Positions 927 to 16,189 of a DNA stretch of 64,000 bases are shown one piece after another. The DNA lies in contig NZ_AP014879.1 of assembly GCF_002355735.1 (NCBI RefSeq), positions 1,860,001-1,924,000 of the forward strand, read 5' to 3'. The stretch is from Sulfuricaulis limicola. GTDB taxonomy: Bacteria > Pseudomonadota > Gammaproteobacteria > Acidiferrobacterales > Sulfurifustaceae. The translations under genes and the position numbers were made by a program. How positions within the stretch are numbered: the stretch's first letter is position 1; every line of letters starts with the position of its first letter. A model generated the notes under the pieces. The model was given only the letters and a program-made list of their open reading frames with translations, was not told where the DNA came from and searched no databases.

Positions 927-2360
927 ATGGAACTGACAACATCGAACCCCGCGCAACCCCACGGCATGACGTGGCTGCGAGACGACCGGTATTCCTGGTT
1001 CCTGGCGGGAATGATGTGGGTGCTGATCGTGCTGATGATCGTGCCGGAAGGCTTCGATTATCAGAGGCTCGCCACAGCCAGTGCGCCCAGTTCAGGCGGG
1101 CCCATCAGCCGCATGCTGTGGCTGTTGCTGCTGGCGCTGGGCATCATGATGGTATCCTGGCGCGCGGGTCTGGCCTGGCTGCTGGCGCGCGTGCTGAATC
1201 CTTTTTTTCTCCTTTTCGTCGCGCTCGCGATTGTCAGCGTCGCCTGGTCCATTGACCCAGCCCTGAGCATCCGGCGTCTTATCCGCCTGGGCACGATTGT
1301 GTTGGCCTGTGTCGCATTCGTGTTGATGAGCTGGCACGCGCGACGCTACCAGAACGTCGTACGCCCGATACTTACCATCGTGCTGCTGGGCTCGATCATT
1401 TTTGGTCTCGTGTTTCCAGCGCTCGCCATCCATCAGCAAACCACGCCGGAACTCATCGGCGCATGGCACGGACTCGCGAATCACAAGAATGGCCTTGGCG
1501 CCCTGGCCTGCATTTCTCTGATTTTCTGGTTTCATGCCTGGCTGACCCGGGAGGTCAGATTCCTGCCGGCGTTGACCGGTGGCGCGGTCGCTGTAACCTG
1601 CCTGGTGCTGTCGCGCAGTTCGACATCGCTGGCGGCCACTTTATTCGTGATGGCCGTGCTGCTCGTGCTGTTGCGCTCGCCTCAGGGCCTGCGTCCTTAT
1701 ATGCCCTATCTGGTCTCGATGCTGGTGGCGCTGCTCCTGATATACACCCTCGCTATCCTGAATCTGATCCCGGGGCTGGGAACCCTGATGGCCCCCGTCA
1801 CCGCGCTGACCGGCAAGGACACGTCGCTCACCGGCCGCACTGAAATCTGGACGATTCTTTCCGAGCATATCAGTTACCGTCCCTTCCTCGGCAGCGGCTA
1901 CGCGGCCTATTGGACCGCCGGACCGGTCCCCGGAGCGGACTCGTATGCGTTCGTGTGGCGCATGGGCTCCTTTTATCCCGGATCCGCCCACAACGGCTAT
2001 CTGGAAATCGTCAACGATCTGGGTTGGATCGGCCTGCTGTGCCTGATCGCCTATATCGTCGTGCATATCCGGCAGTCGCTGCAGCTGCTGGAAATCGACC
2101 GCCATCAGGGCGCCCTGTTTCTGGCCCTGTTCTTTCAGCAAGCGATCACGAACCTCTCCGAAACACACTGGTTCAGCGTGCAGAGCGTCGACTTCGTGAT
2201 CATGGCGCTGGCGACGACGGCGCTGGCACGCAGCCTTCTGGAACATCGACTGCGTCTGGTTTTTGGCCAGCCTCAGCCCTCCACGATCGGGACATCCCAC
2301 GGGATGGCCTTACCGCTGGCGCGCGAATCTTTCGATCGCACTCCGGATGGCGGAGCCTGA
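927..2360 (+). CDS. O-antigen ligase/polymerase family membrane protein (Wzy/WaaL type)
   Basis: A 477-residue polytopic inner-membrane protein with about 10-12 hydrophobic helices. Near residues 290-360 there is a large periplasmic loop containing GKDTSLTGRTEIW and, later, SAHNGYLEIVNDLGW. That pattern (a TGR..iW segment followed by a His-Asn-Gly-Tyr element) is typical of the Wzy_C/O-antigen ligase family. Within an exopolysaccharide operon, polymerisation of undecaprenyl-linked repeat units is the likeliest job; ligase activity cannot be excluded. The ATG follows the previous gene by 66 bp, the only sizeable gap in this run of genes, so a secondary promoter could lie there. Confidence 0.85.
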   Translation: MELTTSNPAQPHGMTWLRDDRYSWFLAGMMWVLIVLMIVPEGFDYQRLATASAPSSGGPISRMLWLLLLALGIMMVSWRAGLAWLLARVLNPFFLLFVALAIVSVAWSIDPALSIRRLIRLGTIVLACVAFVLMSWHARRYQNVVRPILTIVLLGSIIFGLVFPALAIHQQTTPELIGAWHGLANHKNGLGALACISLIFWFHAWLTREVRFLPALTGGAVAVTCLVLSRSSTSLAATLFVMAVLLVLLRSPQGLRPYMPYLVSMLVALLLIYTLAILNLIPGLGTLMAPVTALTGKDTSLTGRTEIWTILSEHISYRPFLGSGYAAYWTAGPVPGADSYAFVWRMGSFYPGSAHNGYLEIVNDLGWIGLLCLIAYIVVHIRQSLQLLEIDRHQGALFLALFFQQAITNLSETHWFSVQSVDFVIMALATTALARSLLEHRLRLVFGQPQPSTIGTSHGMALPLARESFDRTPDGGA

Positions 2361-3489
2361 TCTCATGACGCCCGTCAGCGACCGCCCCCAGTACGCAACC
2401 GGCACGATCCCGTCCCTGGATGGCATCCGCGCCATCGCGGTGGCGCTGGTGTTCTTCGCCCACAGTGGATTCGATGCCATCATTCCCGGCGGCCTCGGTG
2501 TCACCATTTTTTTCGTGCTGAGCGGCTACCTCATCACCACCCTCATGCGCATCGAGCACGCCCGCCGCGGCCGCATCAGCTATCGTGGCTTTTACCTGCG
2601 ACGTCTGCTGCGGCTGATGCCGCCTTTGTTCATTGTTGTCGTGGTAACCGGCCTGCTGGCCGCCTTCTCCGTCATCGATGGCGGTTTCACAACGGGCGGC
2701 CTGTTCTCGGCCCTGTTTTATTTCGGCAACTATCATGTGATTGCGAACGACTACCATGGCATGCCCGTGGGTCTCGGCGTGATATGGTCGCTGGCCATCG
2801 AGGAACACTATTATCTTTTTTATCCTCCGCTGGCGGCGCTGTTGCTGCGTGTCGGCCGCGTCGGACTGTCCGTCACCGCGCTCTCGATACTCTGCGTCGT
2901 CGTTTTGGCGTGGCGTTACTGGCTCGTGTTTCATGGCGGCACGGAAGCGCACATCACGATGGCCACCGACACGCGGGCCGACGCCATCCTGATCGGTTGT
3001 ATCATGGCATTGTTGTTCAATCCCCGGCTGGATCCGGTCCCGGCCCCGAAAGCACTCAACGACTTGGGCATCGCCGCGGTCTGCGTCGCCGTGTTGGCAG
3101 GCACTCTGCTGTATCGCGACGAAGTCTTCCGCCTCACGGCCCGCTACACCCTGCAATGCCTGGCGATCGCACCCCTGATCTATCTGGCCGTGGCCCGGGC
3201 GGACCGGCTGCCGTTTCGCTGGTTGAACGCCCGACCGCTCGTGTATATCGGAACGATTTCCTACACCATCTACCTTTCGCATCACGTGATTCTGCTGGGG
3301 CTCGCCAAACACTGGCCGCAGCTGGGCTGGATCGGGCTGACGCTGCTGGGGGCCATCATGACGCTGGCGGTGGCGGAACCGATGCGCCGCTGGGTCGAAG
3401 AGCCCTGCGCCAGGCTGCGCAAACGGCTGCATCGAAAAACCCTCGCGCGCGAGCCGGCGCCGGGCATTCTCCCCGTGGGTGCGCCATGA
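2347..3489 (+). CDS. Acyltransferase 3 family protein (OafA-like polysaccharide O-acyltransferase)
   Basis: A membrane acyltransferase that would add acetyl or another acyl group to sugar hydroxyls of the polymer or its precursors. The start of the domain (SLDGIRAIAVALVFFAHSG, with the family's catalytic His), then GGLGVTIFFVLSGYLITTL, YLRRLLRLMPPLF and WSLAIEEHYYLFYPPL are hallmark segments of Acyltransferase_3, followed by about ten helices. The frame stays open further upstream inside the previous gene, but the domain begins just after the ATG at 2347; another ATG lies at 2365. I use 2347, which overlaps the previous gene by 14 bases. About 380 residues, normal for the family without an SGNH domain. 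Confidence 0.88.
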   Translation: MAEPDLMTPVSDRPQYATGTIPSLDGIRAIAVALVFFAHSGFDAIIPGGLGVTIFFVLSGYLITTLMRIEHARRGRISYRGFYLRRLLRLMPPLFIVVVVTGLLAAFSVIDGGFTTGGLFSALFYFGNYHVIANDYHGMPVGLGVIWSLAIEEHYYLFYPPLAALLLRVGRVGLSVTALSILCVVVLAWRYWLVFHGGTEAHITMATDTRADAILIGCIMALLFNPRLDPVPAPKALNDLGIAAVCVAVLAGTLLYRDEVFRLTARYTLQCLAIAPLIYLAVARADRLPFRWLNARPLVYIGTISYTIYLSHHVILLGLAKHWPQLGWIGLTLLGAIMTLAVAEPMRRWVEEPCARLRKRLHRKTLAREPAPGILPVGAP

Positions 3490-4925
3490 AATGCGCTGAA
3501 GCCATCACGCCGCATGACGTATCTCCGGAAGCGGCCATCAGCGCCATCCTGAGCCACGGCGGGCCGGTTCTGCTCGACCTGGATGAAACACTGTATCTGC
3601 GCAACTCCACCGAGGACTTCATCGATTCGGCGCGTCCGCGCCTGCCGGCGCTGTTGCTGATGAGGATGCTGGATGCCGTCAAACCGTGGCGCTGGACCGG
3701 CGGCGAAACCACCCGCGACGTGTGGCGCGTGCGCCTCATCGCGACATGCTTTCCCTGGACCGTGAAGCGCTGGAAAAACCAGGTTATCGGGCTCGCGAAA
3801 AACTTCACCAACCTGCGTCTGTTGGAAGCGCTGAAAACGCCGGGCACGACGCCGATCATCACCACCGCCGGATTCCAGCCTATCGTCGCCCCGCTGGTGG
3901 CGGCGCTGGGTCTGCCGCAGGCGCAAATAATCGCCGCGCGCCTGTCGAGCTTCGCCGACCGCCGCGATGGAAAACTTCATCTGGTCGTCGGCGCGCTCGG
4001 TGATGACACCGTTCGCCGCGCGCTCGTGCTTACCGATTCGGCGCAGGACCTCACGCTGCTCAATGCGTGCGCCCGCCCATTGCGGGCGGTGTGGCCGGAG
4101 GCGCGTCACCAGCACGCCTTGAGCGGTGTCTACCTGCCCGGTCAGTACCTGACGCATGTCAAACGACCCGGTGCGCGCTATATCGTGCGCGGCATCCTGC
4201 AGGAGGATTTCGCCTTCTGGGTCTTGAGCTCGATAGCACTGGCGGCGCTGCCGCTGCTGCATGTCCTGGGGCTGCTGTTCCTGCTGGTGTCGTTCTGGGC
4301 GATCTACGAGCGCGGCTACGTTGACAATGATCTGATCGCGGCGCGCTTCGAGACAGACCCGAAACTCAGCGCGGCATTTATGGATTCGCCGGTGGCCACA
4401 CCGCGCTGGCAACCGTGGATCTGGGCGTTCGCCTGTGGCGCGATCGCCATTGTTCTGCTGCGCTGGCCGGCAACCCCCGTGCCCATGGACTTCGCCGCAT
4501 GGGCCGCAGTACTGCTGGCGACCCACGGCTGGTTCATGCTGTACAACCGATTTGACAAGGGCGCGCGCGTCTGGATGTTTGCGGGTTTGCAGTTCGCACG
4601 CAGCGCGGCCTTTATCGCGCTGGTGCCGATCGGTCTGATCGGCGCGCTGGCGCTCGGCGCCCATGTCCTGGCAAAGTGGGTGCCCTATTACGTATACCGG
4701 CTCGGCGGCAAGGAATGGCCCGAGGCGCCATTTCATCTGATACGGTTGTTATTTTTCCTGGTATTGGCGCTGTTGCTGGGGTTTTCCCAGGGAATCGCGT
4801 CACTGTTGAGCGGAACCGCGCTGGCGCTGCTGGCCTGGAATTTGTTCAGGGCCCGCCAGGAACTGGCCGCGGCCTTGAAGGCGGCCAGACGTCTGGACCG
4901 GGCCGGCACCCGGCCCCTGCCATGA
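3486..4925 (+). CDS. HAD-family phosphatase domain fused to a polytopic membrane domain
   Basis: A 479-residue two-part protein. The N-terminal half carries HAD motif I as LLDLDETLYLR (about residues 30-40, nucleophile Asp plus Asp+2), motif II-like PIITTAG near 120 and motif IV-like ALVLTDSAQD near 180. The C-terminal half (from about 235) has six or more hydrophobic helices plus the charged segment YERGYVDNDLIAARFE. This layout resembles HAD domains fused to UbiA-like prenyltransferases, but I do not see clear UbiA Asp-rich motifs, so I leave the membrane half unnamed. The ATG overlaps the upstream stop (ATGA). A role in processing a lipid-linked or phosphorylated precursor is inference. 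Confidence 0.65.
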   Translation: MKCAEAITPHDVSPEAAISAILSHGGPVLLDLDETLYLRNSTEDFIDSARPRLPALLLMRMLDAVKPWRWTGGETTRDVWRVRLIATCFPWTVKRWKNQVIGLAKNFTNLRLLEALKTPGTTPIITTAGFQPIVAPLVAALGLPQAQIIAARLSSFADRRDGKLHLVVGALGDDTVRRALVLTDSAQDLTLLNACARPLRAVWPEARHQHALSGVYLPGQYLTHVKRPGARYIVRGILQEDFAFWVLSSIALAALPLLHVLGLLFLLVSFWAIYERGYVDNDLIAARFETDPKLSAAFMDSPVATPRWQPWIWAFACGAIAIVLLRWPATPVPMDFAAWAAVLLATHGWFMLYNRFDKGARVWMFAGLQFARSAAFIALVPIGLIGALALGAHVLAKWVPYYVYRLGGKEWPEAPFHLIRLLFFLVLALLLGFSQGIASLLSGTALALLAWNLFRARQELAAALKAARRLDRAGTRPLP

Positions 4926-5842
4926 ACATCAGCCTGTGCATTGCCACCTACCGCCGGCCGGAACGTCTGGGCGCACTGCTCGATGACCTCGTCAAACAGC
5001 AGCAACTTCCAATAGACGTCGTGGTAGTCGATAACGATGCCGCGGGCAGCGCACGCGCGGTGGTGAAGCGGCGGCGCGAGCTGGGTGCTCCGTTTCCGAT
5101 TCACTACGATATCCAGCCCGTGAAAAATATTTCGCTGACACGCAACCGCACCGTGGCGCTGGCAAACAGCGACTGGATCGCCTTTATCGACGATGACGAA
5201 CGCGCGCCGGCGGGCTGGTTAAAAAAACTGTCTGAAGCCGCTATCCGCTGCAATGCCGATGGCGTGCTGGGTCCGGTCGAGCCGGTCGTACCCGCCAATG
5301 CGCCGGCATGGATCCAGCACGGCAGCTTTTATGAATGGTGGCGAATGAAAACCTGCGCCGTCATTCCTCCCAACAAACTGCGCTTTGGCAACGTGCTGCT
5401 GCGGGGCGCACTTCTGCGCGATACACCGACACCCTTCGATCCGGACTACGGCCTGACCGGCGGCGAAGACGGCGATCTGCTCGGGCGTCTGGTACAGCAG
5501 GGCGCGCGCATCGTGTGGTGCGACGAAGCCATCGTGCACGAGCCGGTCGAAGGCGCACGCCTGTCGTTGCGCTGGCTGCTGCTGCGGGCATTGCGCGGCG
5601 GACAGGACTTCGCGCGACACTGGCTGGCGGGAAGTTATGGACAACTCACGTCGACCGGGCGCGTGCGCCTTTTTCTGCGCGCACTCCTGCAGTCGGCACT
5701 GGCGGCCGGGTTGGCGTTTCTGTCCTGGCCACTCGGCCGACATCGCGCCGTGTATTGGCTGCTGAAGGCTTCAGCCAATATCGGAAAGATAACGATTTTG
5801 CTTGGTTGGCATTACCGTGAATACGGGGGCAAGGACACATGA
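4922..5842 (+). CDS. Family 2 glycosyltransferase
   Basis: A 306-residue GT-A glycosyltransferase. It opens with ISLCIATYRRPERL, continues with VVVVDNDA near residues 33-40, a conserved arginine stretch SLTRNRTVALANSDW, and the metal/nucleotide-sugar binding acidic motif IDDDE near residues 89-93. A later GGEDGDLLGRL (about residues 180-190) fits the acceptor or catalytic-base region. A hydrophobic segment near residue 270 may tether it to the membrane. The start overlaps the preceding stop as ATGA, and the stop overlaps the next start the same way, so translation is probably coupled. It most likely adds one sugar of the repeat unit. Donor and acceptor cannot be read from sequence. Confidence 0.88.
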   Translation: MNISLCIATYRRPERLGALLDDLVKQQQLPIDVVVVDNDAAGSARAVVKRRRELGAPFPIHYDIQPVKNISLTRNRTVALANSDWIAFIDDDERAPAGWLKKLSEAAIRCNADGVLGPVEPVVPANAPAWIQHGSFYEWWRMKTCAVIPPNKLRFGNVLLRGALLRDTPTPFDPDYGLTGGEDGDLLGRLVQQGARIVWCDEAIVHEPVEGARLSLRWLLLRALRGGQDFARHWLAGSYGQLTSTGRVRLFLRALLQSALAAGLAFLSWPLGRHRAVYWLLKASANIGKITILLGWHYREYGGKDT

Positions 5843-7023
5843 CAACCATGATGAACATGATCTTGTTTGTGTTGGCGCTGCCGGCGACCGCGGTGAGTTT
5901 ATATTTGCTATTGTTTACGCTGTTGTCGAGCGCACCACCGGCGACGCTGCGCTCATCGCGACGGCCGCACTTTGATGTCATCGTCCCGGCCCATAACGAG
6001 GCGGCGGTCATCGAAGGCGTCATCGCCAGCCTGCGCCAGCTTGATTGGCCGGCCGACGGCTTTCGCATACTGGTGGTCGCCGACAACTGCACGGATACAA
6101 CCGCGGAGCTGGCGCGCGCCGCCGGCGCCGAGGTGCTGGAACGCCACGATACCCAGCGTCGCGGCAAAGGTCATGCGCTGGACTTCGCTTTCCGGGCGAG
6201 CCAGGTGCACGGTTCGGCCTATGCCGTCGTCGTCGTGGATGCCGACACCCAGGTCTCGCCGAACCTGCTCGAAGCGTTTGCCGCGCGCATTGAGCTCGGG
6301 GCCAAGGTCATACAGGCGCATTATGGCGTGCTCAATGCACAAGCATCCTGGCGCACGCGCCTCATGGCCATTGCCTTGGCTTCGTTTCACCGGGTGCGTT
6401 CGCGCGGACGCGAACGCCTGCAACTTTCCTGCGGCATACGCGGCAACGGCTGGTGCATTACGCACCGGCTGCTGCGCCAGGTGCCGTATCAGGCATACTC
6501 CCTGGCCGAGGATATCGAATACGGAATCGATCTGGGCCTCGCCGGCTTTCGCGTGCACTACGCCGATGAAGCGCAGGTCGCCGCCATGATGGTGACGGAT
6601 GAGCAGGCGGCGCGCAGCCAGCGCCAGCGCTGGGAGGACGGGCGCTGGCAGCTGATCCGTTCCAGGACCCTGCCACTGTTGCAGGCAGCCATGGGTCGCG
6701 GCGGCCGGGTCTGTCTGGATCTGGCACTCGACCTGCTGGTGTTACCCCTGTCCTATGTGGCTCTCAATACCGCAGTGTTGATTGTCCTCGCCGGGATTGC
6801 ATGGTTGTGGGAGCCTTCCATGGAGATCTGGTTATGGCTGGGACTTGGCTGTGGCATGGGCCTGCTGCTCTATGTGTTGCGCGGCTGGCAGCTCAGCAAT
6901 GTCGGCTGGCGTGGTCTCGTGGATTTGTTGCGTGCTCCGTTTTTCGTGCTTTGGAAAGTGCTGCTGATGCTGCGTGCGCGCGGGTCGGTTGAATGGATAC
7001 GCACCAAGCGGGAACAATCGTGA
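5839..7023 (+). CDS. Membrane-bound family 2 glycosyltransferase
   Basis: A 394-residue GT2 enzyme with an N-terminal helix (residues 5-30), a GT-A core starting DVIVPAHNEA, the nucleotide-binding VVVDADT (DAD at 134-136), an EDIEYGIDLGLAG segment containing the catalytic acid, and QRQRW, a QxxRW-type acceptor motif. Two or three helices follow (about 285-370). This resembles processive or membrane-associated enzymes that work on lipid-linked acceptors at the cytoplasmic face. It overlaps both neighbours by 4 bases. Two downstream Met codons close to the start (MTTMMNM) make the exact start slightly uncertain. Confidence 0.87.
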   Translation: MTTMMNMILFVLALPATAVSLYLLLFTLLSSAPPATLRSSRRPHFDVIVPAHNEAAVIEGVIASLRQLDWPADGFRILVVADNCTDTTAELARAAGAEVLERHDTQRRGKGHALDFAFRASQVHGSAYAVVVVDADTQVSPNLLEAFAARIELGAKVIQAHYGVLNAQASWRTRLMAIALASFHRVRSRGRERLQLSCGIRGNGWCITHRLLRQVPYQAYSLAEDIEYGIDLGLAGFRVHYADEAQVAAMMVTDEQAARSQRQRWEDGRWQLIRSRTLPLLQAAMGRGGRVCLDLALDLLVLPLSYVALNTAVLIVLAGIAWLWEPSMEIWLWLGLGCGMGLLLYVLRGWQLSNVGWRGLVDLLRAPFFVLWKVLLMLRARGSVEWIRTKREQS

Positions 7024-8315
7024 ATGATCGCCGTCAGCGGCATTTCGCCTTCGCGCGCCTGCTCAGCAGCGCGGTGGTCAGTCAGGCCGTGCTTTCCGCC
7101 GCCAGTTTTGCCATCGGCCTGATCCTCATTCGCGGCACGACCGATACTCAGTACGGCTATTACATCCTGGCGTCGAGCGCCATTCTCCTGCTGGTTTCCC
7201 TCCAGAACGCGTTTTTCAGCCCTCCCCTGGCAATTCGCCTGACGCGGCTCGATCGCCCGGGACGCGGCGATCTGGTCGGCGGCCTGTATCGCGAGCAACG
7301 GCGGTTGCTGCCGGCGCTCGGCGCCATTACCGTCGTCATGGCGCTCGGCCTGTGGTACGCCCGGGTACTGGACGCCGACACCGCGCCGCTGGTGCTCGCC
7401 ACGGTAGCCGCCACCCTCGCGATCCTGCATCGCGAGTACTTTCGCATGGTGCTGTACGCGCATCGCCGGCCGCATGACGTGCTCCGCACCGACATGTTCT
7501 ATGTCGTGCTGATGGTGGCGGGTGCTTTCGCTGCCACCCTCACGCCGGCGCCGGCGGTAACGGCTGTCCTCACCCTGAGCCTGGCCGCCGTGGTGAGCGG
7601 AATTCTGTTGTCGCGGGCATTGCAGCGTCACGAACCCTGGAACATTCAGGGCGCGCCGGGCATCCTGCAGGAAATTGCCCCGCTCGCCGCCTGGTCCACC
7701 GCGGGCGCGGCGATTCATTGGACCTTCAGTCAGGGGTATATTTATCTGGTCGCCGGCACCCTCGACATCGCCGCCGTGGCGGCGATCGCGGCCACGCGCC
7801 TGCTGATGATGCCCGTGAACCTGCTGTCAACGGGAATCGGCTCGCTCATGCTGCCGCTGGCATCGGGCTGGCTGCATCGACACGGCATTCTGATGTTGCG
7901 ACGTCGCCTGTACCTCTTCGCCCTGGGCCTGGCCGCGGCGACGCTTTGCTACTTCGTCATCCTGTGGTTCTTGCGCGACTGGATTTTCGCCGTTGTCCTC
8001 AAGAAACAGTTCATGCAGCGCGATGCATTATTGCTGCTGTGGGGAGCTGTTTTTCTCGTGATGGCGGTCCGTGGCCAGCTGGTTTATCTGCTGGCGGCAC
8101 AAGGACGTTTCCGCGTCATGTCCCTGCTCACGCTCGTGAGCGCCGTGATAGCGCTCACCGCCAGTTACGCGGGAATGCTGCGGTTCGGGGTGGCCGGCGC
8201 GCTGGCAGGCATGCTGATCGGTGAACTGGTCAACGCGGCCGGTATCGTGATCCTTTCATTCCGCCAGGCGCCGCAACCGCTCGCCGCACAACGTTTTGGT
8301 ACAAGCTCGCCATGA
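7020..8315 (+). CDS. Wzx-like polysaccharide flippase (MOP superfamily)
   Basis: A 431-residue integral membrane protein with about 12 predicted helices and short polar loops, typical of Wzx/MATE-type exporters of lipid-linked repeat units. Early QYGYYILASSA and the even helix spacing fit the family; there are no catalytic motifs to test. I chose the GTG at 7020 because it forms a GTGA overlap with the previous stop, matching the ATGA overlaps at most other junctions of this operon. A start at 6993 would add nine residues inside the neighbouring gene. It would supply the flipping step between the glycosyltransferases and the polymerase encoded at 927. Confidence 0.82.
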   Translation: MNDRRQRHFAFARLLSSAVVSQAVLSAASFAIGLILIRGTTDTQYGYYILASSAILLLVSLQNAFFSPPLAIRLTRLDRPGRGDLVGGLYREQRRLLPALGAITVVMALGLWYARVLDADTAPLVLATVAATLAILHREYFRMVLYAHRRPHDVLRTDMFYVVLMVAGAFAATLTPAPAVTAVLTLSLAAVVSGILLSRALQRHEPWNIQGAPGILQEIAPLAAWSTAGAAIHWTFSQGYIYLVAGTLDIAAVAAIAATRLLMMPVNLLSTGIGSLMLPLASGWLHRHGILMLRRRLYLFALGLAAATLCYFVILWFLRDWIFAVVLKKQFMQRDALLLLWGAVFLVMAVRGQLVYLLAAQGRFRVMSLLTLVSAVIALTASYAGMLRFGVAGALAGMLIGELVNAAGIVILSFRQAPQPLAAQRFGTSSP

Positions 8316-9757
8316 CCGACCACTATGATGCCATTGTAGTTGGCACCGGTTTCGCCGGTGCATTTTTCCTGTTGCGATACCTGCAGCACGCGCCACCCAA
8401 AGCGCGCGTCCTGGTGCTGGAACGCGGCAGGAACGACTGCAAGGTGTGGCAATTGCGGAATCGCCGCACCTCGAGCCTCAATACCGAAGAATTCTTCATC
8501 AACAACAATCCGGAAAAGGAATGGCTGATGAGCCTGGGTTTCGGCGGCAGTTCGAATACCTGGTGGGGCGGCGTCGCGCGCATGATGCCCGGTGACTTCC
8601 AGTTGCAATCGCGTTACGGGGTAGGCACCGATTGGCCGTTGCGCTACGAGGATCTGGAAACCTATTACGGAGATGCCGAAGTCATCATGGCGGTATCGGG
8701 CCCGGCGGACAGTCCCATGCCGCGCTCGCGTCCTTTCCCGTTACGGCCGCATCGCTTTTCAGATACCGACGCGCTGTTGAAAAAGACCTTCCCGGACGGC
8801 TGGTTTCACCCGGCCACGACACGGGCCAGCGCGCCCACCGGGACTCGCGGTATTTGCTGCGGCGCCGGTATCTGCGAGCTGTGCCCGCACGATGCGAATT
8901 TCAGCATCTCCAATGGCCTGCGGCGCCTGCATGACGACCCGCGCGTCACCCTGCGACTGCAAGCCACCGTGGAACAAGTGGAAACAAGCGGCGATCTGGC
9001 GCGGGGAGTGAGCTACACGAGCGACGGACAATTGCGCCGGGCGACCGCCGATCTGGTGGTGCTGGCGGCAAGCGCCCTGTTCAATCCGCACATCCTGCTC
9101 CGCTCCGGCATTACGCACGAGCTGCTGGGCAAGCGTCTGCATGAACAAATGCCCGTGGATGTCTGCCTGAACCTGCGCGGCGTCAAGGGTTACAACGGCA
9201 GTACCATAATTTCCGGTAACGGTTATTTGTTTTATGAGGGTGAGCACCGTCGCCAGCACGCCGCCTGTTTGATCGAAACATGGAATTCGCCGTTCAACTA
9301 CCGTCGAGCGGCCCTGCGCGCCGAACGTGGCCGGTGGACGGAACGCGCTTTCTTTCGTTTCATGTTTGACGATCTTCCGCGCGCCGATAACAAGGTTACG
9401 GTAAACGCGGCCAATCCGCACTTGCCCGAAGTCACCTTCAACGGCTACTCGGACTATGCGCAGCGCGGCGTGGATCGCATTCCGGCCATGGTCGATACCC
9501 TGGCGAAAGCGCTGCCCATTGAAGAGATCGAGAGCATCGAGGTGGCGCGCAGCACTTCGCATATTCAAGGCACCGTGGTGATGGGTAACGACCCCGCGAC
9601 CAGTGTCGTCGACCGATACCTGATGCATCATCGGATTCGCAACCTGCTGGTGCTGGGCTCAAGCGCGTATCCGACCGCCAGCCCGGCATACCCGACCCTT
9701 ACGCTCTCGGCCTTGTCGCTATGGGCAGCGGATCATCTGTTCACCAGGAGCGCCTGA
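8312..9757 (+). CDS. GMC-family FAD-dependent oxidoreductase
   Basis: A 481-residue flavoenzyme. The Rossmann FAD site is at the very N-terminus (AIVVGTGFAGAFFLLRYL, then VLVLERG). GFGGSSNTWWGGVARMMPGDF near residues 72-92 is the GMC FAD-attachment and active-site entry region. The C-terminal block has HIQGTVVMG, NLLVLGSSAYPTASPAYPTLT and a final hydrophobic helix, which is the conserved GMC_oxred_C pattern. GMC enzymes oxidise sugar or alcohol hydroxyls; here the substrate could be a sugar of the polymer. No Tat signal is evident, so a cytoplasmic location is likely unless its small partner escorts it. Its start overlaps the flippase stop (ATGA). Confidence 0.85.
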   Translation: MTDHYDAIVVGTGFAGAFFLLRYLQHAPPKARVLVLERGRNDCKVWQLRNRRTSSLNTEEFFINNNPEKEWLMSLGFGGSSNTWWGGVARMMPGDFQLQSRYGVGTDWPLRYEDLETYYGDAEVIMAVSGPADSPMPRSRPFPLRPHRFSDTDALLKKTFPDGWFHPATTRASAPTGTRGICCGAGICELCPHDANFSISNGLRRLHDDPRVTLRLQATVEQVETSGDLARGVSYTSDGQLRRATADLVVLAASALFNPHILLRSGITHELLGKRLHEQMPVDVCLNLRGVKGYNGSTIISGNGYLFYEGEHRRQHAACLIETWNSPFNYRRAALRAERGRWTERAFFRFMFDDLPRADNKVTVNAANPHLPEVTFNGYSDYAQRGVDRIPAMVDTLAKALPIEEIESIEVARSTSHIQGTVVMGNDPATSVVDRYLMHHRIRNLLVLGSSAYPTASPAYPTLTLSALSLWAADHLFTRSA

Positions 9758-9758
9758 A

Positions 9759-10202
9759 ATGCTTAATCGCCGCCGATTTCTTGTCGCAGGCATGGCCGGC
9801 CTCGCCGGACTCGTTGCATGGCGCCTCATCCGCAGCAGCGACGAGGATGCCATCATTGCGGTACTGAAAAAACGGCTCGATTATTTAAGATTGGACGAAA
9901 ACGGCCTGCGTGTTTTCGCCAGGGATCTGGTTGCGCAGCAGATCATAGCCAGCCATAAGCTGCGTTTGCTCGATTTCGCGGGACCTGTTTATACGCAGCT
10001 TTCCCTTGCCGCGCACGGCAACGCGCTGACACGCGCCATACGGCATGGCGAGGAACGCATCGTCACTCAATATCTGCTGTCCAGCGATTTTTTCCAGAAT
10101 GGCGCCGATGAAACCAGGGAAGTTCACTATTATCGCTACTACGATCCCACGCGCACCTCTCGCCCCTGCGGCACTCCCTTTGCCCGATCGATCATGAGTT
10201 GA
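9759..10202 (+). CDS. Small Tat-signal protein next to GMC oxidoreductase, unknown function
   Basis: A 147-residue protein that begins MLNRRRFLVAGMAGLAGLVA, a twin-arginine style signal (RRRF followed by a hydrophobic stretch). The rest is mostly helical, with charged segments (LKKRLDYLRLDENG) and no recognised motif. CAGGAG sits 8 bp before the ATG, and the gene starts one base after the GMC stop. Small Tat-exported proteins paired with GMC flavoenzymes occur in gluconate and sorbitol dehydrogenase complexes, so a partner role is plausible, but the sequence alone does not prove it. It is the last plus-strand gene of the locus. Confidence 0.7.
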   Translation: MLNRRRFLVAGMAGLAGLVAWRLIRSSDEDAIIAVLKKRLDYLRLDENGLRVFARDLVAQQIIASHKLRLLDFAGPVYTQLSLAAHGNALTRAIRHGEERIVTQYLLSSDFFQNGADETREVHYYRYYDPTRTSRPCGTPFARSIMS

Positions 10203-10231
10203 CTGTTGAAACAAGTCTCAGCCAGGATATT

Positions 10232-11590
10232 TCATTCCGCGTAAAGCGCATGGCGCTGCCGCAACGGGACTCCCGCTACCCGCTGCGTCTCGAATGGCAT
10301 CACCGCGGCCAGCTCCGTCGCGGACAGGAATTCACCCCGGCCTTTCCGGACCTCGGTAATCAGCGCGGCAATGGACGCGCGCTCCTCGGGGCTTGTCTGG
10401 AAATCGGGGAGCTTGCCGGGCTCGGCCGGCCCGTTTTCTTGCCTGTTGACATCCCGGCGCACGGGATTGAAAGACATGGGTGCCTCCTTCGATTTGGCAA
10501 CAAACACCCGGCGCTTCCAGTCTCCGAGCTTCCGGTGCCAGAATGGAAGACTGCCCACGCGGTATATCTGCGCGATTCGGGTTTCGGTTATCTCCGCCAG
10601 CCAGCGAACCTTGAAATATCCAAAGCCCGAAAGCAGATTGAGAAACGTGTGGCGGCCATCGATGGCCTGACGCATCGCCATCAGCTGCAATGCCGATCCG
10701 GGCGCGAGGTGTCGCAGGCGGTCGTCGTAAACCATTTGCAACGCGTAGAGCCCCTGCATGAATGCGCCCCTGATGAAACCGGCGATGGGATGTCCGTCAA
10801 ACAGGAGTATCTCGATCGATATCCGCATCGGTTGCCGCGCATCGAGCAGGCCCTTGACGTACTCGACCCGCTCGGGATGCCGGCCAATGATCGCATTGGC
10901 CTTCGACTTCCAGCTGCGCCGTTCTATGCCGCGGTAGAGTTCAAAAAGTGCCGGCGTGATGGCCGGGTCTGACGACGCCAGCAACTCCACGTTGCCCGCC
11001 GCGAGCAGGTGGTGCACCTGCCGTTTGACGTTATGGCGGGAATTCTTCGCAAGTGCCTTGAAATATTCGTGCAGCGTCCCCCAACGCACCTGAATGGTTC
11101 CGTTCTCCAGGCTTGGCCACGGGCGCACCAGATAACCTTCAAGAGAGACCGTGGCCGGTGGCGGAAACAGCGTCGAAGTATCGTCCTGTTGCTGGAATTC
11201 CAGAACGCTCCATTCCTGTTTGCGACCGAGCAGGTAAGCGTAAAATGCCTCGCTGACCCGGATCAGGTGCTCGGGCCGCGCCACCACATGCGGCCGATCG
11301 GTGTCGTGGGTAACCAGGAAACCGATTTGGGATGTCCGCAGTCCCAGAATTTTTCGCGTGACCTGTTTGAGCGCCAGGTAGCCGGCGAGCCGACCGTCGA
11401 GAAAGGCAGCGAGGAACCACAGGCGCACACCCCGGCCTCCGGGAAAGTACTCGTCATGCCGGAGAAAGTTTTCGAAGAACTCGAAGGTCGAGAAGGGATC
11501 CGGCCGCGCGGAGACCAGATTCAGCGCATTAACCTCGTTTCGCAGGGCTTCGGCCTCCTCGAACGCATGGAAACATCGAACCTCGATCAA
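10232..11590 (-). CDS. GNAT-family acetyltransferase-like protein (CelD/BioF2-like)
   Basis: A 452-residue protein of the Acetyltransf_6 (CelD/BcsL, FemAB-like) type often found with exopolysaccharide genes. The core is visible as FEFFENFLRH, a long middle region, SRHNVKRQVHHL, LFELYRGIERRSWK, and the acetyl-CoA-binding-like end LLFDGHPIAGFIRGAFMQGLYALQMVYDDRLRHL. The only start that keeps the whole domain is a TTG at 11590; no in-frame ATG exists nearby. A weak GGAG/CAGG lies before it. It follows the cupin gene by 23 bp and converges on the polysaccharide operon, ending 30 bp from it. Probable acyl or aminoacyl transfer to an envelope or polysaccharide component; substrate unknown. Confidence 0.72.
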   Translation of the reverse strand: MIEVRCFHAFEEAEALRNEVNALNLVSARPDPFSTFEFFENFLRHDEYFPGGRGVRLWFLAAFLDGRLAGYLALKQVTRKILGLRTSQIGFLVTHDTDRPHVVARPEHLIRVSEAFYAYLLGRKQEWSVLEFQQQDDTSTLFPPPATVSLEGYLVRPWPSLENGTIQVRWGTLHEYFKALAKNSRHNVKRQVHHLLAAGNVELLASSDPAITPALFELYRGIERRSWKSKANAIIGRHPERVEYVKGLLDARQPMRISIEILLFDGHPIAGFIRGAFMQGLYALQMVYDDRLRHLAPGSALQLMAMRQAIDGRHTFLNLLSGFGYFKVRWLAEITETRIAQIYRVGSLPFWHRKLGDWKRRVFVAKSKEAPMSFNPVRRDVNRQENGPAEPGKLPDFQTSPEERASIAALITEVRKGRGEFLSATELAAVMPFETQRVAGVPLRQRHALYAE

Positions 11591-11613
11591 ATACCTGTCT
11601 CCATCGATTGGCT

Positions 11614-12651
11614 TTATTCCTCGAGCGCCACCACGCCCCCGGGGGCGTCGGGGTCAACCCGCATCGAAGCCGTGTGTTGTTTTGCCGGCAGCCGGTCCAG
11701 CCCGGCGCGACGCGCCAACCGCTGCGCCACGGTTTTCATCAGCGCCGCCGGCCCTTCCTCGCGCGTCGACAATCCGCGCAGGCCGAGCCGGGTGCGGAAA
11801 AAGCGGTTGGCGACGTAGATTCGCGCGCGCTGCCGGCTCTGCCGGGTAAAGTGCTCGGTCGAGAGCGAGACATTCACGCTGTCCAGGTTGGTCACGCGGT
11901 GCGGGGCATTCTGGGGCCAGGCAACCCACTGCCCCGGTTCGAGATCGTAAACCACCGCCGCCCGGTCAAAGACATGCTCGTAAGGCAGATATTCATGCCG
12001 AACACCGGCAAAGATGTCTTCCAGGTGCTCGCGCCTCACGTAACGCTCGTCGAGCGCGGGATAAACCCAGACCCGCTTGCGCCCCCGGATATGCCACAAC
12101 ACCGAGGCCGGGCCATCGGCATGGTAGTAGACGAGCGCGTGCGGCGACGAGATGAGCAGGGTTCCCTGGCTGAAGTCGGGCAGGAAGCCGGGCACCTGTT
12201 GCGCGAGCTGCACATAAAGCTGGTCGATGAGCGCGCGATAACGCCGGTCGGCGCGATCGACCCGGGTGATGTTGAGCCACAAGCGTCCGTTCCTGACTGC
12301 CTGCAAAAGCTCGGCGCCGCTCACGCCGTCGTGGAGCGCGAGCCGGTTCTCGATCCGGGAGGGATCGGCACCCATGGTCAATGCATGGAGGTTCTTCCGT
12401 GGAAAATGGTCGAGCAGGTCGATCAGCGCGGCGTCCGTGAACAGATCCAGCTCATGCAGATTGTGGGACGCCACCAGCGGTTTCCGGCCAAAGTCGGCTT
12501 TATTTACGTCAAACAACCGGACCGTCGGCATCAGTCTCAGGTGTTCCTTCTGCGGAATCGCCCAGGCGGTGACAAAGAGCTGCGCCGGAGAACTCGCCAT
12601 ATGCCTCCATCCTTGCGTGAAGCGACCGGCTTTAAGCTCGGAAGAGGACAT
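11614..12651 (-). CDS. Cupin/JmjC-like domain protein
   Basis: A 345-residue protein with a C-terminal half that looks like a JmjC/cupin_8 oxygenase fold. The metal-binding pattern is visible as VYYHADGPASVLWHIRGRKRVWVYP (His and Asp of an HxD) and, about 75 residues later, GQWVAWPQNAPHRVTN with the distal His. The family includes Fe(II)/2-oxoglutarate hydroxylases and non-catalytic relatives. It heads a two-gene operon with the GNAT-like gene. I chose the ATG at 12651, preceded by CAGG; a GTG at 12657 and an ATG at 12600 are alternatives. A copy of the TGTnCGnTAnCGnACA palindrome lies about 105 bp upstream. Confidence 0.72.
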   Translation of the reverse strand: MSSSELKAGRFTQGWRHMASSPAQLFVTAWAIPQKEHLRLMPTVRLFDVNKADFGRKPLVASHNLHELDLFTDAALIDLLDHFPRKNLHALTMGADPSRIENRLALHDGVSGAELLQAVRNGRLWLNITRVDRADRRYRALIDQLYVQLAQQVPGFLPDFSQGTLLISSPHALVYYHADGPASVLWHIRGRKRVWVYPALDERYVRREHLEDIFAGVRHEYLPYEHVFDRAAVVYDLEPGQWVAWPQNAPHRVTNLDSVNVSLSTEHFTRQSRQRARIYVANRFFRTRLGLRGLSTREEGPAALMKTVAQRLARRAGLDRLPAKQHTASMRVDPDAPGGVVALEE

Positions 12652-12756
12652 AAACACCTGCCTGGTAAAGACATGGGAAATCGCACAAACCGCCGCACCG
12701 CATGCGAAACTGAATTACGCCGGGCAATAATAATGAACCCGGGAACCAGGCGGGTC

Positions 12757-12772
12757 TGTTCGATAGCGCACT
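12757..12772 (-). promoter_or_regulatory. Palindromic operator candidate, site 1 (upstream of cupin-GNAT operon)
   Basis: The plus strand reads TGTTCGATAGCGCACT. It matches TGTnCGnTAnCGnACA at every defined position except the last. It overlaps the stop codon of the GGDEF-EAL gene and is upstream of the cupin gene, which is read away from it. Part of a set of six (see the findings). Confidence 0.55.
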
Positions 12773-14387
12773 AAAGGAGAGTTCCCGATATTCCGTTTGC
12801 CAGCAAGCCGGCGAATTCACCGGCCTGGACCGGACGGCCGAAATAGTATCCCTGGCCCTCGTCGCAATGCCGGGCCAGAAGAAATGCGTATTGCTCCGGT
12901 GTTTCCACGCCCTCGGCAATCACGCGTCGCTTGAGGCTTTTACCCAGGCTGATCACGGCACTGACGATAGCCGCATCGTCCGGGTTGCTGGTTATCTGGC
13001 GCACGAACGAGCGGTCGATCTTCAGGGTATCGATCGGAAACTTGCTCAGATAACTCAGGCTGGAATAGCCGGTGCCGAAGTCATCGAGCGTCAGCTTCAC
13101 GCCCAGGTCCGCGAGCGCATGCAGCACTTCATCGGTATATCCGACAACACGCATGAGGATGCTTTCGGTCAGCTCGAGTTCCAGGTAGCGCGGCTCCAGA
13201 TGCGTCTCTTCAAGCGCGGCGCGTATATTTTGGAAAAAATCCTTGGCGCGAAATTCGAGCGCGGAGGTGTTGATGGCAACGATGATCGGCGGCAAGCCGG
13301 CCTGCCGCCAGGCCCGGGCCTGGCAGCAGGCCTCGCGAAGCACCCAGCGGCCGATCGGCAGTATCAGCCCGCAATCCTCGGCAACGGGCACGAACTGCGC
13401 CGGCGGCAGCAGCCCTTGCTCCGGATGCTGCCAGCGGATGAGCGCCTCGACACCGACAATCGCGCCGCTGTGGAGATTGATTTTCGGCTGATAGTGCAGC
13501 ACGAATTCCCGCCGTTCCAGCGCGCGACGCAGGCCGGCCTCGGTGGATTGCCGCTGGACAGCGCGGGCGTTCATGTCCTGTTCGAAGAACATGTAATTGT
13601 TGCGGCCATTTTCCTTGGCGTGATACATCGCGGTGTCGGCGCTCCGGATGAGGGTTTCCGCATCCTGGCCATCGTCGGGGTAGATGCTGATGCCGATACT
13701 CACGCTGATATGGAGATCATGCCGGTCGATACGGTGTGGCGCCGTCAGCGCCGTGAGCATCTTGTGCGCCGAGAGCGCCGCGTCTTCGGCGCGCTCAATG
13801 CAGGGAAGCAGCAGCACGAATTCATCCCCGCCCTGGCGACTGATGGTGTCCGATTGGCGCACGCAACCCACCAGGCGCTGCGCCACCGACTGCAACAGTT
13901 GGTCGCCCACCGCGTGCCCGAGGGAGTCGTTGATATGCTTGAATTGGTCGAGGTCCATGAACATTACCGCCAGTTGCCGGCCCTGGCGACGGGCCAGCTC
14001 AATCGCCTGGTTGAGCCGGTCTTGCAGCAACACCCGGTTGGGCAGATCGGTGAGAACATCGTGATGCGCCAGATGATCCAGCTGAACCTTGGCAATCTGG
14101 ACCTGCTCGGCCAGTTTGTTGGCTTCAATGCTGGCGATTACCAGGTGCGCGTTCGCCTGTTGCAGCATGGCCACGTGATCGTCGGACGCCGCCTGCGTCG
14201 CCCCGGCCGCGCGAATTTCCCGCTTCTTGCGGGCGGGAGCGGCCGCCTTGCCGCCCCGGACCGCCTTTCCCCTGCGCGGGACATTTTTTTTCATGGCAGC
14301 CGGCGACCTGTCCGGACGCCGGCTGGACGCAACCGCGTGACCCGATTCATTGGTATCCGATGCGTCGTCTTCATCGCTTCTGTTCAT
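12771..14387 (-). CDS. GGDEF-EAL cyclic-di-GMP turnover protein
   Basis: A 538-residue cytoplasmic protein. Residues 1-55 are basic and disordered-looking, 56-108 form a coiled coil, 109-275 are a GGDEF domain and about 285-530 an EAL domain. The GGDEF motif is intact (186-190), and RQSD at 177-180 is a correctly spaced inhibitory I-site, so diguanylate cyclase activity is possible. The EAL domain keeps EALIRW (314-319), ELTES, DDFGTGYSS and AEGVET, so phosphodiesterase activity is expected. There is no sensor domain; input may come through the coiled coil, which is nearly the same as the linker of the hybrid kinase upstream. It lies 203 bp downstream of that kinase. Confidence 0.92.
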   Translation of the reverse strand: MNRSDEDDASDTNESGHAVASSRRPDRSPAAMKKNVPRRGKAVRGGKAAAPARKKREIRAAGATQAASDDHVAMLQQANAHLVIASIEANKLAEQVQIAKVQLDHLAHHDVLTDLPNRVLLQDRLNQAIELARRQGRQLAVMFMDLDQFKHINDSLGHAVGDQLLQSVAQRLVGCVRQSDTISRQGGDEFVLLLPCIERAEDAALSAHKMLTALTAPHRIDRHDLHISVSIGISIYPDDGQDAETLIRSADTAMYHAKENGRNNYMFFEQDMNARAVQRQSTEAGLRRALERREFVLHYQPKINLHSGAIVGVEALIRWQHPEQGLLPPAQFVPVAEDCGLILPIGRWVLREACCQARAWRQAGLPPIIVAINTSALEFRAKDFFQNIRAALEETHLEPRYLELELTESILMRVVGYTDEVLHALADLGVKLTLDDFGTGYSSLSYLSKFPIDTLKIDRSFVRQITSNPDDAAIVSAVISLGKSLKRRVIAEGVETPEQYAFLLARHCDEGQGYYFGRPVQAGEFAGLLANGISGTLL

Positions 14388-14590
14388 TTACCCGCCTTCC
14401 ATGGCCCGGACGTCCCGGCGATGGGCTGACCATCGGCCGGTGTGTACCGTACGTTTGCAGACCTCATTCAGATCGGTCTGACAACCAATACGGAATTAAA
14501 AAACAAGGGCTGGAGCACAGAAAGGCTAGGCGCGTCGACCACAACGGTCGGTACGATGGCGCACATAGCCTGGGGTCATACCTCTGCGGA

Positions 14591-16189
14591 TCACGGGCCC
14601 GACGCGGGTGGCGGTGTGCCGTCTTGTCCTGTTTCCACGCGTTGCAGCGCCATGTCCAGCGCCAGCATGAACTCCTTGATCCTGATCGGCTTGGTGAGAT
14701 AACCGAGGAATCCCGCCTCCAGGCCTCTCTGGATATCGCGTGGCATGGCATTGGCGCTGATGGCCAGTACCGGGATGTGCGCCGTGGCCGGGTCGTCACG
14801 CAGGATTTTCAGCGCCTGGAAGCCGTTGATGCCGGGCAGATTGATGTCCATCAGGATCACGTCCGGGAGCTGGGTGCGCGCCAGTGCGATGCCATGATTG
14901 CCATCAAGCGCGCTCAGCATGCGCAGCTGCGGGATATTCTCGATCATGTGCTCGACCAGCAGCAGGTTGGCCGGATTGTCTTCCACATACAGCAGGGTGC
15001 GCCGCCGTCCCGCGCCTTCCCGGGCTTGCGGCGAAAGCATCGCGGGCATGGCGTTGTCAGCGGCCGATTGGGGGGGGCTGACATCGCGGATCAGTTCAAA
15101 CCAGAATTCGCTGCCCGCGCCGACGGTGCTTTCCGCGCCGATGCTGCCGCCCATCATTTCGACCAGTTGCTTGGAGACCACCAGGCCGATGCCGGTGCCT
15201 TCCTCGTCGCCGGTCTCCTGCCCGAGACGATTGAACGGCTGAAACAGCTGCGCCAGCTGTTGCGGGGACAATCCCGCGCCGCTGTCCTTGATGCTGATGC
15301 GCAGGCGTTCCGGGGTCGCGCTGCACGCCACCTCGACCGTTCCATGCTGGCGGCTGTATTTGATCGCATTGGAAAGCAGGTTGATCAGAACCTGCTTGAC
15401 CCGGGTCCGGTCGGCGCTGGCAACCCAGCCGTGGTCGAACGGCAGATAGTTGATATGGGTGTCGTGTTTTTGCGCCTGCGATTCGATCATGGCCTGGCAT
15501 TCGCGCATCACCTCGATCAGTGACACCGATTCCCGGGACAGCGACAGCTTGCCGGACTCGATCACCGCGAGATCGAGAATCTGGTTGATCAGTTCCAGCA
15601 GGTACCACCCGGCCTTGATAATCTGCTGCAGCCGTTCGGTCTGGGTGTCCGTTGGCGGCGGTGAACCGGCCTCCAGCAACTGGGCGAAGCCGAGGATGGC
15701 ATTGAGCGGGGTGCGCAGCTCATGGCTCATGCTGGAAAGGAATTCCGATTTCGCGCGATTGGCTTTTTCCGCGACGAGCTTGGCGCCCTCCAGCTGGACC
15801 TTGGCCTTTCCGAGCTGTTCGGCCAGTTTCTGCGCTTCGAGGGTGGCGATGACCAGGCGTGTGTTCGCCTGCTGCAACATGGCCATGTGATCGTCGGCCG
15901 CCGCCTGTGTCGCGTCGGCCGCGCGAATTTCCCGCTCGCGCGAGGCGGCCGTCCCTTCGCGCGCGTCGACGGCGTTTTCGCGCCTGTCCACGGCACCTTC
16001 GCGGGCCGTGACCAGGGTCTCGCGGTTTCGAACGGCCGCTTTATCGCCAATCACGGCACTTTTTCTGCCCGGGTGGTCTTTTGCCCGGGCGGCGGGCAAG
16101 CTGCCTTTGCGCCGGCTGGTCACGCGCGGCTGACCTCGTTCACTGGATTCAGCGGCGTTGTGCTTGTCATTTCCATGCATTCCCGCCAT
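14591..16189 (-). CDS. Hybrid histidine kinase (coiled coil-HisKA-HATPase-REC)
   Basis: A 532-residue soluble sensor kinase without transmembrane or PAS regions. Residues 60-90 hold 7-residue repeats beginning RE (REGAVDR, RENAVDA, REGTAAS), followed by a coiled coil to about 145. The HisKA phosphoacceptor is His156 in MSHELRTPLNAILGFAQLL. The ATPase has LINLLSNAIKYS, DSGAGLS and EGTGIGLVVSKQL. A receiver domain from about 390 has its phospho-Asp at 448 (ILMDINLPG). The REC end is nearly identical at DNA level to that of the kinase at 35394. It sits 16 bp after the second KaiC-like gene, suggesting a kinase output for that protein, as in other KaiC-linked systems (inference). Confidence 0.92.
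   Translation of the reverse strand: MAGMHGNDKHNAAESSERGQPRVTSRRKGSLPAARAKDHPGRKSAVIGDKAAVRNRETLVTAREGAVDRRENAVDAREGTAASREREIRAADATQAAADDHMAMLQQANTRLVIATLEAQKLAEQLGKAKVQLEGAKLVAEKANRAKSEFLSSMSHELRTPLNAILGFAQLLEAGSPPPTDTQTERLQQIIKAGWYLLELINQILDLAVIESGKLSLSRESVSLIEVMRECQAMIESQAQKHDTHINYLPFDHGWVASADRTRVKQVLINLLSNAIKYSRQHGTVEVACSATPERLRISIKDSGAGLSPQQLAQLFQPFNRLGQETGDEEGTGIGLVVSKQLVEMMGGSIGAESTVGAGSEFWFELIRDVSPPQSAADNAMPAMLSPQAREGAGRRRTLLYVEDNPANLLLVEHMIENIPQLRMLSALDGNHGIALARTQLPDVILMDINLPGINGFQALKILRDDPATAHIPVLAISANAMPRDIQRGLEAGFLGYLTKPIRIKEFMLALDMALQRVETGQDGTPPPASGP

Follow-up and report, generated by a model that had tools for sequence, protein, structure and literature searches.

A flavoenzyme and a twin-arginine small protein that close a Sulfuricaulis polysaccharide cluster form a candidate tailoring cassette

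Results

Gene pair and cluster

The stretch analyzed here is 64,000 nucleotides of the Sulfuricaulis limicola genome (contig NZ_AP014879.1, positions 1,860,001 to 1,924,000; hereafter the window), in which a polysaccharide cluster ends with a gene for a GMC-type flavin adenine dinucleotide (FAD) oxidoreductase and a gene for a small twin-arginine protein, named TatS here. The two may constitute an exported enzyme that modifies the polymer made by the cluster. The oxidoreductase, proposed as the catalytic (alpha-like) subunit, has 481 residues and is encoded from an ATG start at 8312–9757; TatS, the proposed hitchhiker (gamma-like) subunit, has 147 residues and is encoded from an ATG start at 9759–10202, both on the forward strand. 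The initial annotation had placed a GMC gene at 8312 with a partner of the twin-arginine translocation (Tat) type one base later at the end of a polysaccharide cluster, and both open reading frames (ORFs) lie there as described, with a single base between the GMC stop and the TatS ATG. Four bases (ATGA, 8312–8315) are common to the beginning of the GMC gene and the stop of a putative flippase gene. As the GNAT-domain gene that follows (10232–11590) is convergent, on the opposite strand, the pair is the last element of the cluster. The genome comprises 2.86 Mb in one contig, and its nearest named relative is a Sulfuricaulis metagenome-assembled genome (MAG), whose GMC protein is 91% identical. 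The pairing is not a chance neighborhood, since it recurs in Gammaproteobacteria and Alphaproteobacteria.

The genes preceding the pair, all on the forward strand, encode a polysaccharide tyrosine autokinase (120–860; NCBIfam eps_fam above the cut-off, EpsG-like below it), a protein of the Wzy/O-antigen ligase family (927–2360; Pfam Wzy_C), an acyltransferase-3 (2263–3489 as the ORF was listed, the real start probably being later), a HAD-type protein with a C-terminal membrane part (3486–4925, ATG at 3486), a GT2 glycosyltransferase (4676–5842 as listed, with a start probably near 4925), an EpsU-like GT2 glycosyltransferase (5839–7023; EpsU-like match below the cut-off) and a polytopic putative flippase (6993–8315). 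The last had no match in Pfam or NCBIfam and is named only from its hydrophobic sequence character and its place. Wzz and GDSL hydrolase genes of the same cluster lie upstream of the window. Together, the chain-length kinase, polymerase, glycosyltransferases and putative flippase form a Wzx/Wzy-type set. Judged from ORF overlaps only, the cluster is probably co-transcribed with the pair. The HAD-type protein fuses a phosphatase domain to a conserved membrane part with an invariant YERGYVDNDL segment, possibly a diverged UbiA-like fusion. Upstream of the cluster, at locus L015, we also observed two consecutive Wzz-type ORFs that share a segment, like a partial tandem duplication (12542–15123), and, on the other strand, a one-module nonribosomal peptide synthetase with condensation, adenylation, carrier and thioesterase domains (7005–11201).

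Catalytic subunit

The GMC protein matched Pfam GMC_oxred_C (E = 1.4e-13) and GMC_oxred_N (E = 9.9e-9). Its best matches in the PDB were two entries named 'Glucose dehydrogenase' (8hdd and 6a2u, E = 1.2e-33), which we take to be the FAD glucose dehydrogenase of Burkholderia cepacia (BcGDH). The next-best solved relative was the large subunit of fructose dehydrogenase (7w2j, E = 2.2e-30, aligned over 75–477). The N-terminus opens directly with the FAD motif, no signal peptide of its own being apparent, and the protein retains both this motif and the conserved catalytic histidine (His417, 9560–9562) of the catalytic subunits of FAD dehydrogenases of the direct electron transfer type. The structure paper on BcGDH describes FAD bonded to His105, a His/Asn catalytic pair, a 3Fe-4S cluster held by Cys212, Cys218 and Cys222, and a disulfide between Cys213 and Cys152 of the Tat-borne gamma subunit (PMC6719666). 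By alignment, the window enzyme carries Thr83 (8558–8560) at the position of the flavin-bonding His105 and Tyr460 (9689–9691) in place of the second catalytic residue, Asn519 of BcGDH. Its cysteine motif, C182-C183-x4-C188-x2-C191 (8855–8884), would provide Fe-S ligands at 182, 188 and 191 and an intersubunit disulfide partner at Cys183.

These features were compared between enzymes of the window's kind (pair-type) and enzymes of classical dehydrogenase complexes. In a midpoint-rooted tree of 27 sequences, which omits the weak matches L003–L005 and G1032 and the cut-off alpha subunits of L042–L059 (L and G numbers denote loci and genomes), the 22 pair-type enzymes fell on one side of a 100/100 branch and five classical enzymes on the other. 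All 22 pair-type enzymes have the three cysteines proposed as Fe-S ligands, spaced C-x5-C-x2-C as against C-x5-C-x3-C in solved 3Fe-4S enzymes. At the His105-equivalent position, none of the 19 aligned pair-type enzymes has a histidine (16 Cys, two Ala and one Thr, that of the window; alignment A5, without L009, L032 and L034), while four of the five classical enzymes do, L014 being without it. The second catalytic position is Tyr in eight of the nine enzymes of the window's clade and His in one (L012); it is Asn in all ten pair-type enzymes read outside that clade.

TatS family

TatS gave nothing at E ≤ 1 against Pfam and NCBIfam, PF12318 included. We examined 22 GMC genes, the window's among them, leaving out seven of ten plasmid records (H1–H6 and H8) that hold further relatives; L006 and L002 are the same locus, and L011 and L012 come from one MAG. 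A small twin-arginine ORF directly follows 20 of the 22 (in L009 the contig stops within it), and for one further GMC gene, L068b, the TatS is a shared one, situated between this gene and its tandem GMC neighbor. That locus (L068:8723–12251), with two GMC genes and a single TatS, has a neighborhood that reads like fatty-acid synthesis genes and not like polysaccharide genes.

In 17 aligned TatS sequences (alignment A4, which omits L009, whose contig ends in the gene, L032, a near copy of L031, and L068), only R4, R5, F53, C137 and P140 are invariant, with A142 nearly so. In the window, the twin arginine is encoded at 9768–9773 and Cys137, the proposed disulfide partner of GMC Cys183, at 10167–10169, both on the forward strand. 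The C-terminal end reads C-x-x-P in 16 of the 17 and C-x-P in L030; the L032 and L068 proteins likewise have the RR and the cysteine. The conserved part thus consists of the Tat signal and a C-terminal Cys-Pro element resembling the Cys152 region of BcGDH gamma. TatC is present in the window's genome. The window's TatS has no AxA-like cleavage site in the usual place, relatives differing in this respect, and the protein therefore probably remains as a membrane anchor.

If the second cysteine of the alpha motif bonds a gamma cysteine, the two should come and go together. A PF12318 search found 18 classical complexes in 18 of 299 genomes, 17 of them readable (the alpha subunit of L053 was not), with identical genes counted once (L035/L043 and L037/L049). 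Both cysteines are present in ten of the 17 and both absent in seven. Three further classical complexes agree, L036 with both cysteines and L014 and L038 with neither, for a total of 20 of 20 concordant (11 both, nine neither). Among pair-type loci, all 22 alpha subunits carry the CC and all 19 full-length TatS proteins carry the C-terminal cysteine. Thus, the TatS cysteine tracks the second cysteine of the alpha motif as in the FAD-SLDH hitchhiker subunits, and position 137 corresponds to where the solved small subunit is disulfide-bonded to the CC motif of its enzyme. This co-occurrence supports assignment of TatS as a putative gamma-like subunit.

Profile comparison was also performed. Full-length profiles at first matched at a probability of 27.5% (P = 0.00065), and a mature-only comparison still containing the gamma rows L056, L058 and L059, which had been cut at a wrong RR, scored 15.1, under its reversed control (21.7). 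After these rows were removed and the profile recut, full-length TatS against gamma scored 37.3 (probability 79.9%) versus 21.1 and 21.8 for the reversed profiles, a score that takes in the Tat signal found in every Tat protein. The mature parts of TatS and gamma scored 21.5, with column shuffles averaging 10.9 and reaching 17.9 at most (0 of 200 as high) but with reversed TatS and reversed gamma at 20.1 and 21.3 under the same cut.

Comparison with known systems

The window pair shares with the gamma–alpha(–beta) complex of BcGDH the GMC sequence, the catalytic histidine and the CC..C..C motif, as well as a Tat small subunit that is encoded beside the catalytic one and has a C-terminal cysteine placed to bond the second alpha cysteine. 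It differs in gene order (alpha–gamma instead of gamma–alpha), in cysteine spacing (C-x5-C-x2-C instead of C-x5-C-x3-C), in having Thr83 for the flavin-bonding histidine and Tyr460 for the catalytic asparagine, and in lying in a polysaccharide cluster with no multihaem beta gene nearby. Frames with at least two CxxCH motifs within 5 kb were found at none of the 21 pair loci (flanks were shorter at five) versus two of five classical loci. Fructose dehydrogenase, a three-subunit enzyme with a cytochrome, differs from the pair in the same ways. The FAD-SLDH small subunits (PF12318) resemble TatS in being small Tat proteins whose C-terminal end is conserved, and have or lack the cysteine in step with the alpha CC motif; TatS is nevertheless undetected by PF12318. 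Glycoside 3-oxidases and pyranose oxidases, for which we know of no Tat partner, also belong to the GMC family but show far weaker similarity (8qve, E = 1.5e-8) and reduce O2. One report describes glycoside 3-oxidases as GMC enzymes that oxidize glycosides at C3 (PMC10646112). From these sequence comparisons, the pair would work like the gamma–alpha core of BcGDH, yet it fails several defining features and is not filed as a member of that family.

Linkage to polysaccharide genes

Of the 21 pair loci, 15 have polysaccharide genes within the roughly 10 kb fetched around the pair. These loci comprise the window, L002/L006, L007–L010, L013, L020 (a PF00953 transferase and a nucleotide-sugar dehydratase), L031–L034 (L031 by domain scan, L032–L034 from tblastn matches and ORF reading), L039 (an annotated lipopolysaccharide biosynthesis protein and a glycosyltransferase), L040 (Wzx) and L041 (glycosyltransferases and a pyruvyl transferase). 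In addition, a GT87 gene and a UbiA gene stand beside the pair in L011, and a glycosyltransferase gene in L012. In the tree, the linked loci occupy two separate regions. A tblastn search with the window's polysaccharide genes found none at the classical loci L035–L038, a weak control in that it found none at the pair loci L019, L020 and L030 either.

At one locus, L013, a 3-keto-disaccharide hydrolase gene (11946–12749; PF06439, E = 8.6e-29) begins before TatS ends, which might point to oxidation at C3. PF06439 gave eight matches in seven of the 19 genomes or records with the pair, and no match in the window's own genome. Two weak matches (G528 and G677), found in L033 and L034 some 2 kb away from the pair, are probably the GH16 gene seen in L031; five others lie outside every fetched neighborhood. 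A strong match hence adjoins the pair at one of 21 loci. GH5 genes are found in the neighborhoods L008, L010 and L013.

Two side observations concern these neighborhoods. The polysaccharide cluster of L010 contains a second GMC-type gene with HHIGT and NPTLT signatures (10070–11857). In alphaproteobacterial loci, a phosphoribosyltransferase-like gene is repeatedly found next to the pair and the flippase (L031:5630–6652, L039:12165–13139 and L040:16933–17928); its Pfam match is weak in L040 and absent in L031.

Presence, absence and rarity

A search of 145 genomes found the HAD/membrane protein in four, every one belonging to the window's genus (G000, G004, G005 and G006); among these, only G000 and G005 have the GMC gene (E ≤ 1e-20). 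G004 and G006, draft genomes in which the relevant stretches lie within contigs, show the same cluster order up to the flippase and then pass directly to the convergent GNAT gene, without the pair. Window position 8287 corresponds to position 9146 of L086 and window position 10274 to 9234, so that about 2 kb here faces 87 bases there; the pair is also missing from the same cluster in L087. The pair thus behaves as a unit that is accessory to an otherwise complete polysaccharide cluster, as expected of a decoration module. The window's arrangement in L007, from a gammaproteobacterium, would favor loss of the pair in G004 and G006.

The pair is rare. At E = 1.7e-132 or better, the GMC profile matched six of 398 Pseudomonadota genomes (the window's own included), with four more weak matches; it matched three of 289 alphaproteobacterial genomes at E below 1e-180, with two more weak, and three of 293 gammaproteobacterial genomes. 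The TatS profile matched in three of 369 gammaproteobacterial genomes. Downstream of TatS in G005, we also noted a fragment resembling the flippase C-terminus (L002:3522–3608; query 403–431, 45% identity), a hint that gain or loss of the cassette may have involved a duplicated flippase tail.

Discussion

The pair is most likely a removable tailoring cassette that supplies a periplasmic, Tat-exported dehydrogenase for the polymer of a Wzx/Wzy-type cluster, a reading to which we give about half of our confidence. The GMC protein would acquire FAD, and probably an iron-sulfur cluster, on folding in the cytoplasm, and would then bind TatS and, as its hitchhiker, pass through the Tat pore into the periplasm. 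A disulfide between GMC Cys183 and TatS Cys137 would lock the dimer, with the window's TatS probably staying behind as its membrane anchor. The enzyme would then oxidize a hydroxyl of the exported lipid-linked repeat unit or of the nascent chain to give an oxo-sugar, and electrons would leave through FAD and the cluster. Because no cytochrome subunit is encoded nearby, their acceptor would be separately encoded. Sequence shows the gene pair with its conservation, the co-occurring cysteines, the linkage and the presence or absence of the pair; from it we infer export, dimer, Fe-S cluster and anchoring, and we put forward substrate and regiochemistry as hypothesis only.

The initial annotation had proposed that the small protein carries the GMC enzyme through Tat, which is now well supported, if indirectly, by adjacency at 20 of 22 genes, the invariant twin arginine, a cysteine pair matching a solved disulfide and the presence of TatC. 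Its second proposal, oxidation of the polymer after export, is supported in part: linkage at 15 of 21 loci and presence or absence at a complete cluster make polymer oxidation likely on genomic grounds, and four of the 21 loci (L019, L030, L068 and L069, read by eye and partly domain-scanned), where no polysaccharide genes were recognized, count against it.

Several further observations weigh against the tailoring dehydrogenase. The change from Asn to Tyr could alter or abolish dehydrogenase chemistry, and the predicted cluster motif is spaced one residue more tightly than that of the solved 3Fe-4S enzymes. Nor do the co-occurrence counts represent separate events, as all seven both-absent complexes among the 17 come from one family, f212, which also has four of the both-present complexes. 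The mature profile score of 21.5 is no better than that of reversed TatS (20.1) or reversed gamma (21.3) and so does not count as evidence of kinship between TatS and gamma. A low-confidence model of TatS (pLDDT 68.5) had no fold match in the PDB below E = 0.001, the solved small subunits included, although a model this poor speaks neither for nor against. At L069, in a genome listed as 10% contaminated, no TatS was found beside the GMC gene.

Among other explanations, the one that survives best is a periplasmic respiratory dehydrogenase that oxidizes free sugars for energy, its polysaccharide neighborhood being incidental. The best solved relatives are indeed free-sugar dehydrogenases, and the four loci without recognized polysaccharide genes fit such an enzyme. 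We nevertheless consider it unlikely, as two separated branches of the tree are both linked to polysaccharide genes, the GMC ORF overlaps that of the flippase, and the multi-CxxCH frames present at two of five classical loci are lacking within 5 kb of the 21 pair loci.

Less plausible still, the GMC enzyme might act with the HAD/membrane protein on a polyprenyl-linked sugar, oxidizing it to yield a rare sugar donor as in the mycobacterial DprE1 step. The HAD/membrane protein is comparable in size and order to HAD–UbiA fusions, and in L011 the pair has GT87 and UbiA genes as neighbors. Against this, the protein has no Pfam UbiA match, its poor model (pLDDT 58) found no solved fold at E ≤ 0.001, and G004 and G006 keep its gene without the pair, which together make the scheme improbable. 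It is similarly improbable that the window's Tyr variant, for all that Tyr stands in eight of nine enzymes of the clade and His in the other, has ceased to dehydrogenate and become an oxidase, lyase or non-catalytic binder, since the catalytic histidine, FAD motif, cysteine motif and partner are all kept and relatives with Asn show the same gene pairing.

The tailoring cassette can be taken one step further, to a so far unannotated exopolysaccharide (EPS) tailoring system of Gammaproteobacteria and Alphaproteobacteria, in which a two-subunit Tat-exported FAD/Fe-S dehydrogenase would add keto groups, perhaps at C3, to the growing polymer. This extension is speculative, and we lean against it while keeping it in sight. 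The best hint of C3 regiochemistry is the single locus L013 with its PF06439 gene. The keto groups would be reactive and could serve cross-linking, or controlled cleavage of the chain by a 3-keto-glycoside hydrolase like the L013 protein; in the window's clade, Tyr would stand in for the second catalytic residue.

To our knowledge, no established tailoring step has a dedicated, Tat-exported flavoenzyme oxidize bacterial polysaccharides outside the cytoplasm. In the open-licence literature, we found no paper on such a pair in a polysaccharide cluster among the matches listed (titles and starts of abstracts), and nothing relevant on EPS of Sulfuricaulis. In one study, a Caulobacter mutant in the GMC family oxidoreductase CC_1278 is described with low holdfast staining (PMC13001252).

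If the proposed function is true, the pair would represent an unusual way of modifying such a polymer, in which redox decoration joins acylation and pyruvylation, and it would give a role to the unnamed small protein family represented by TatS. A natural test is available in closely related genomes that share this cluster but differ in whether they carry the cassette.

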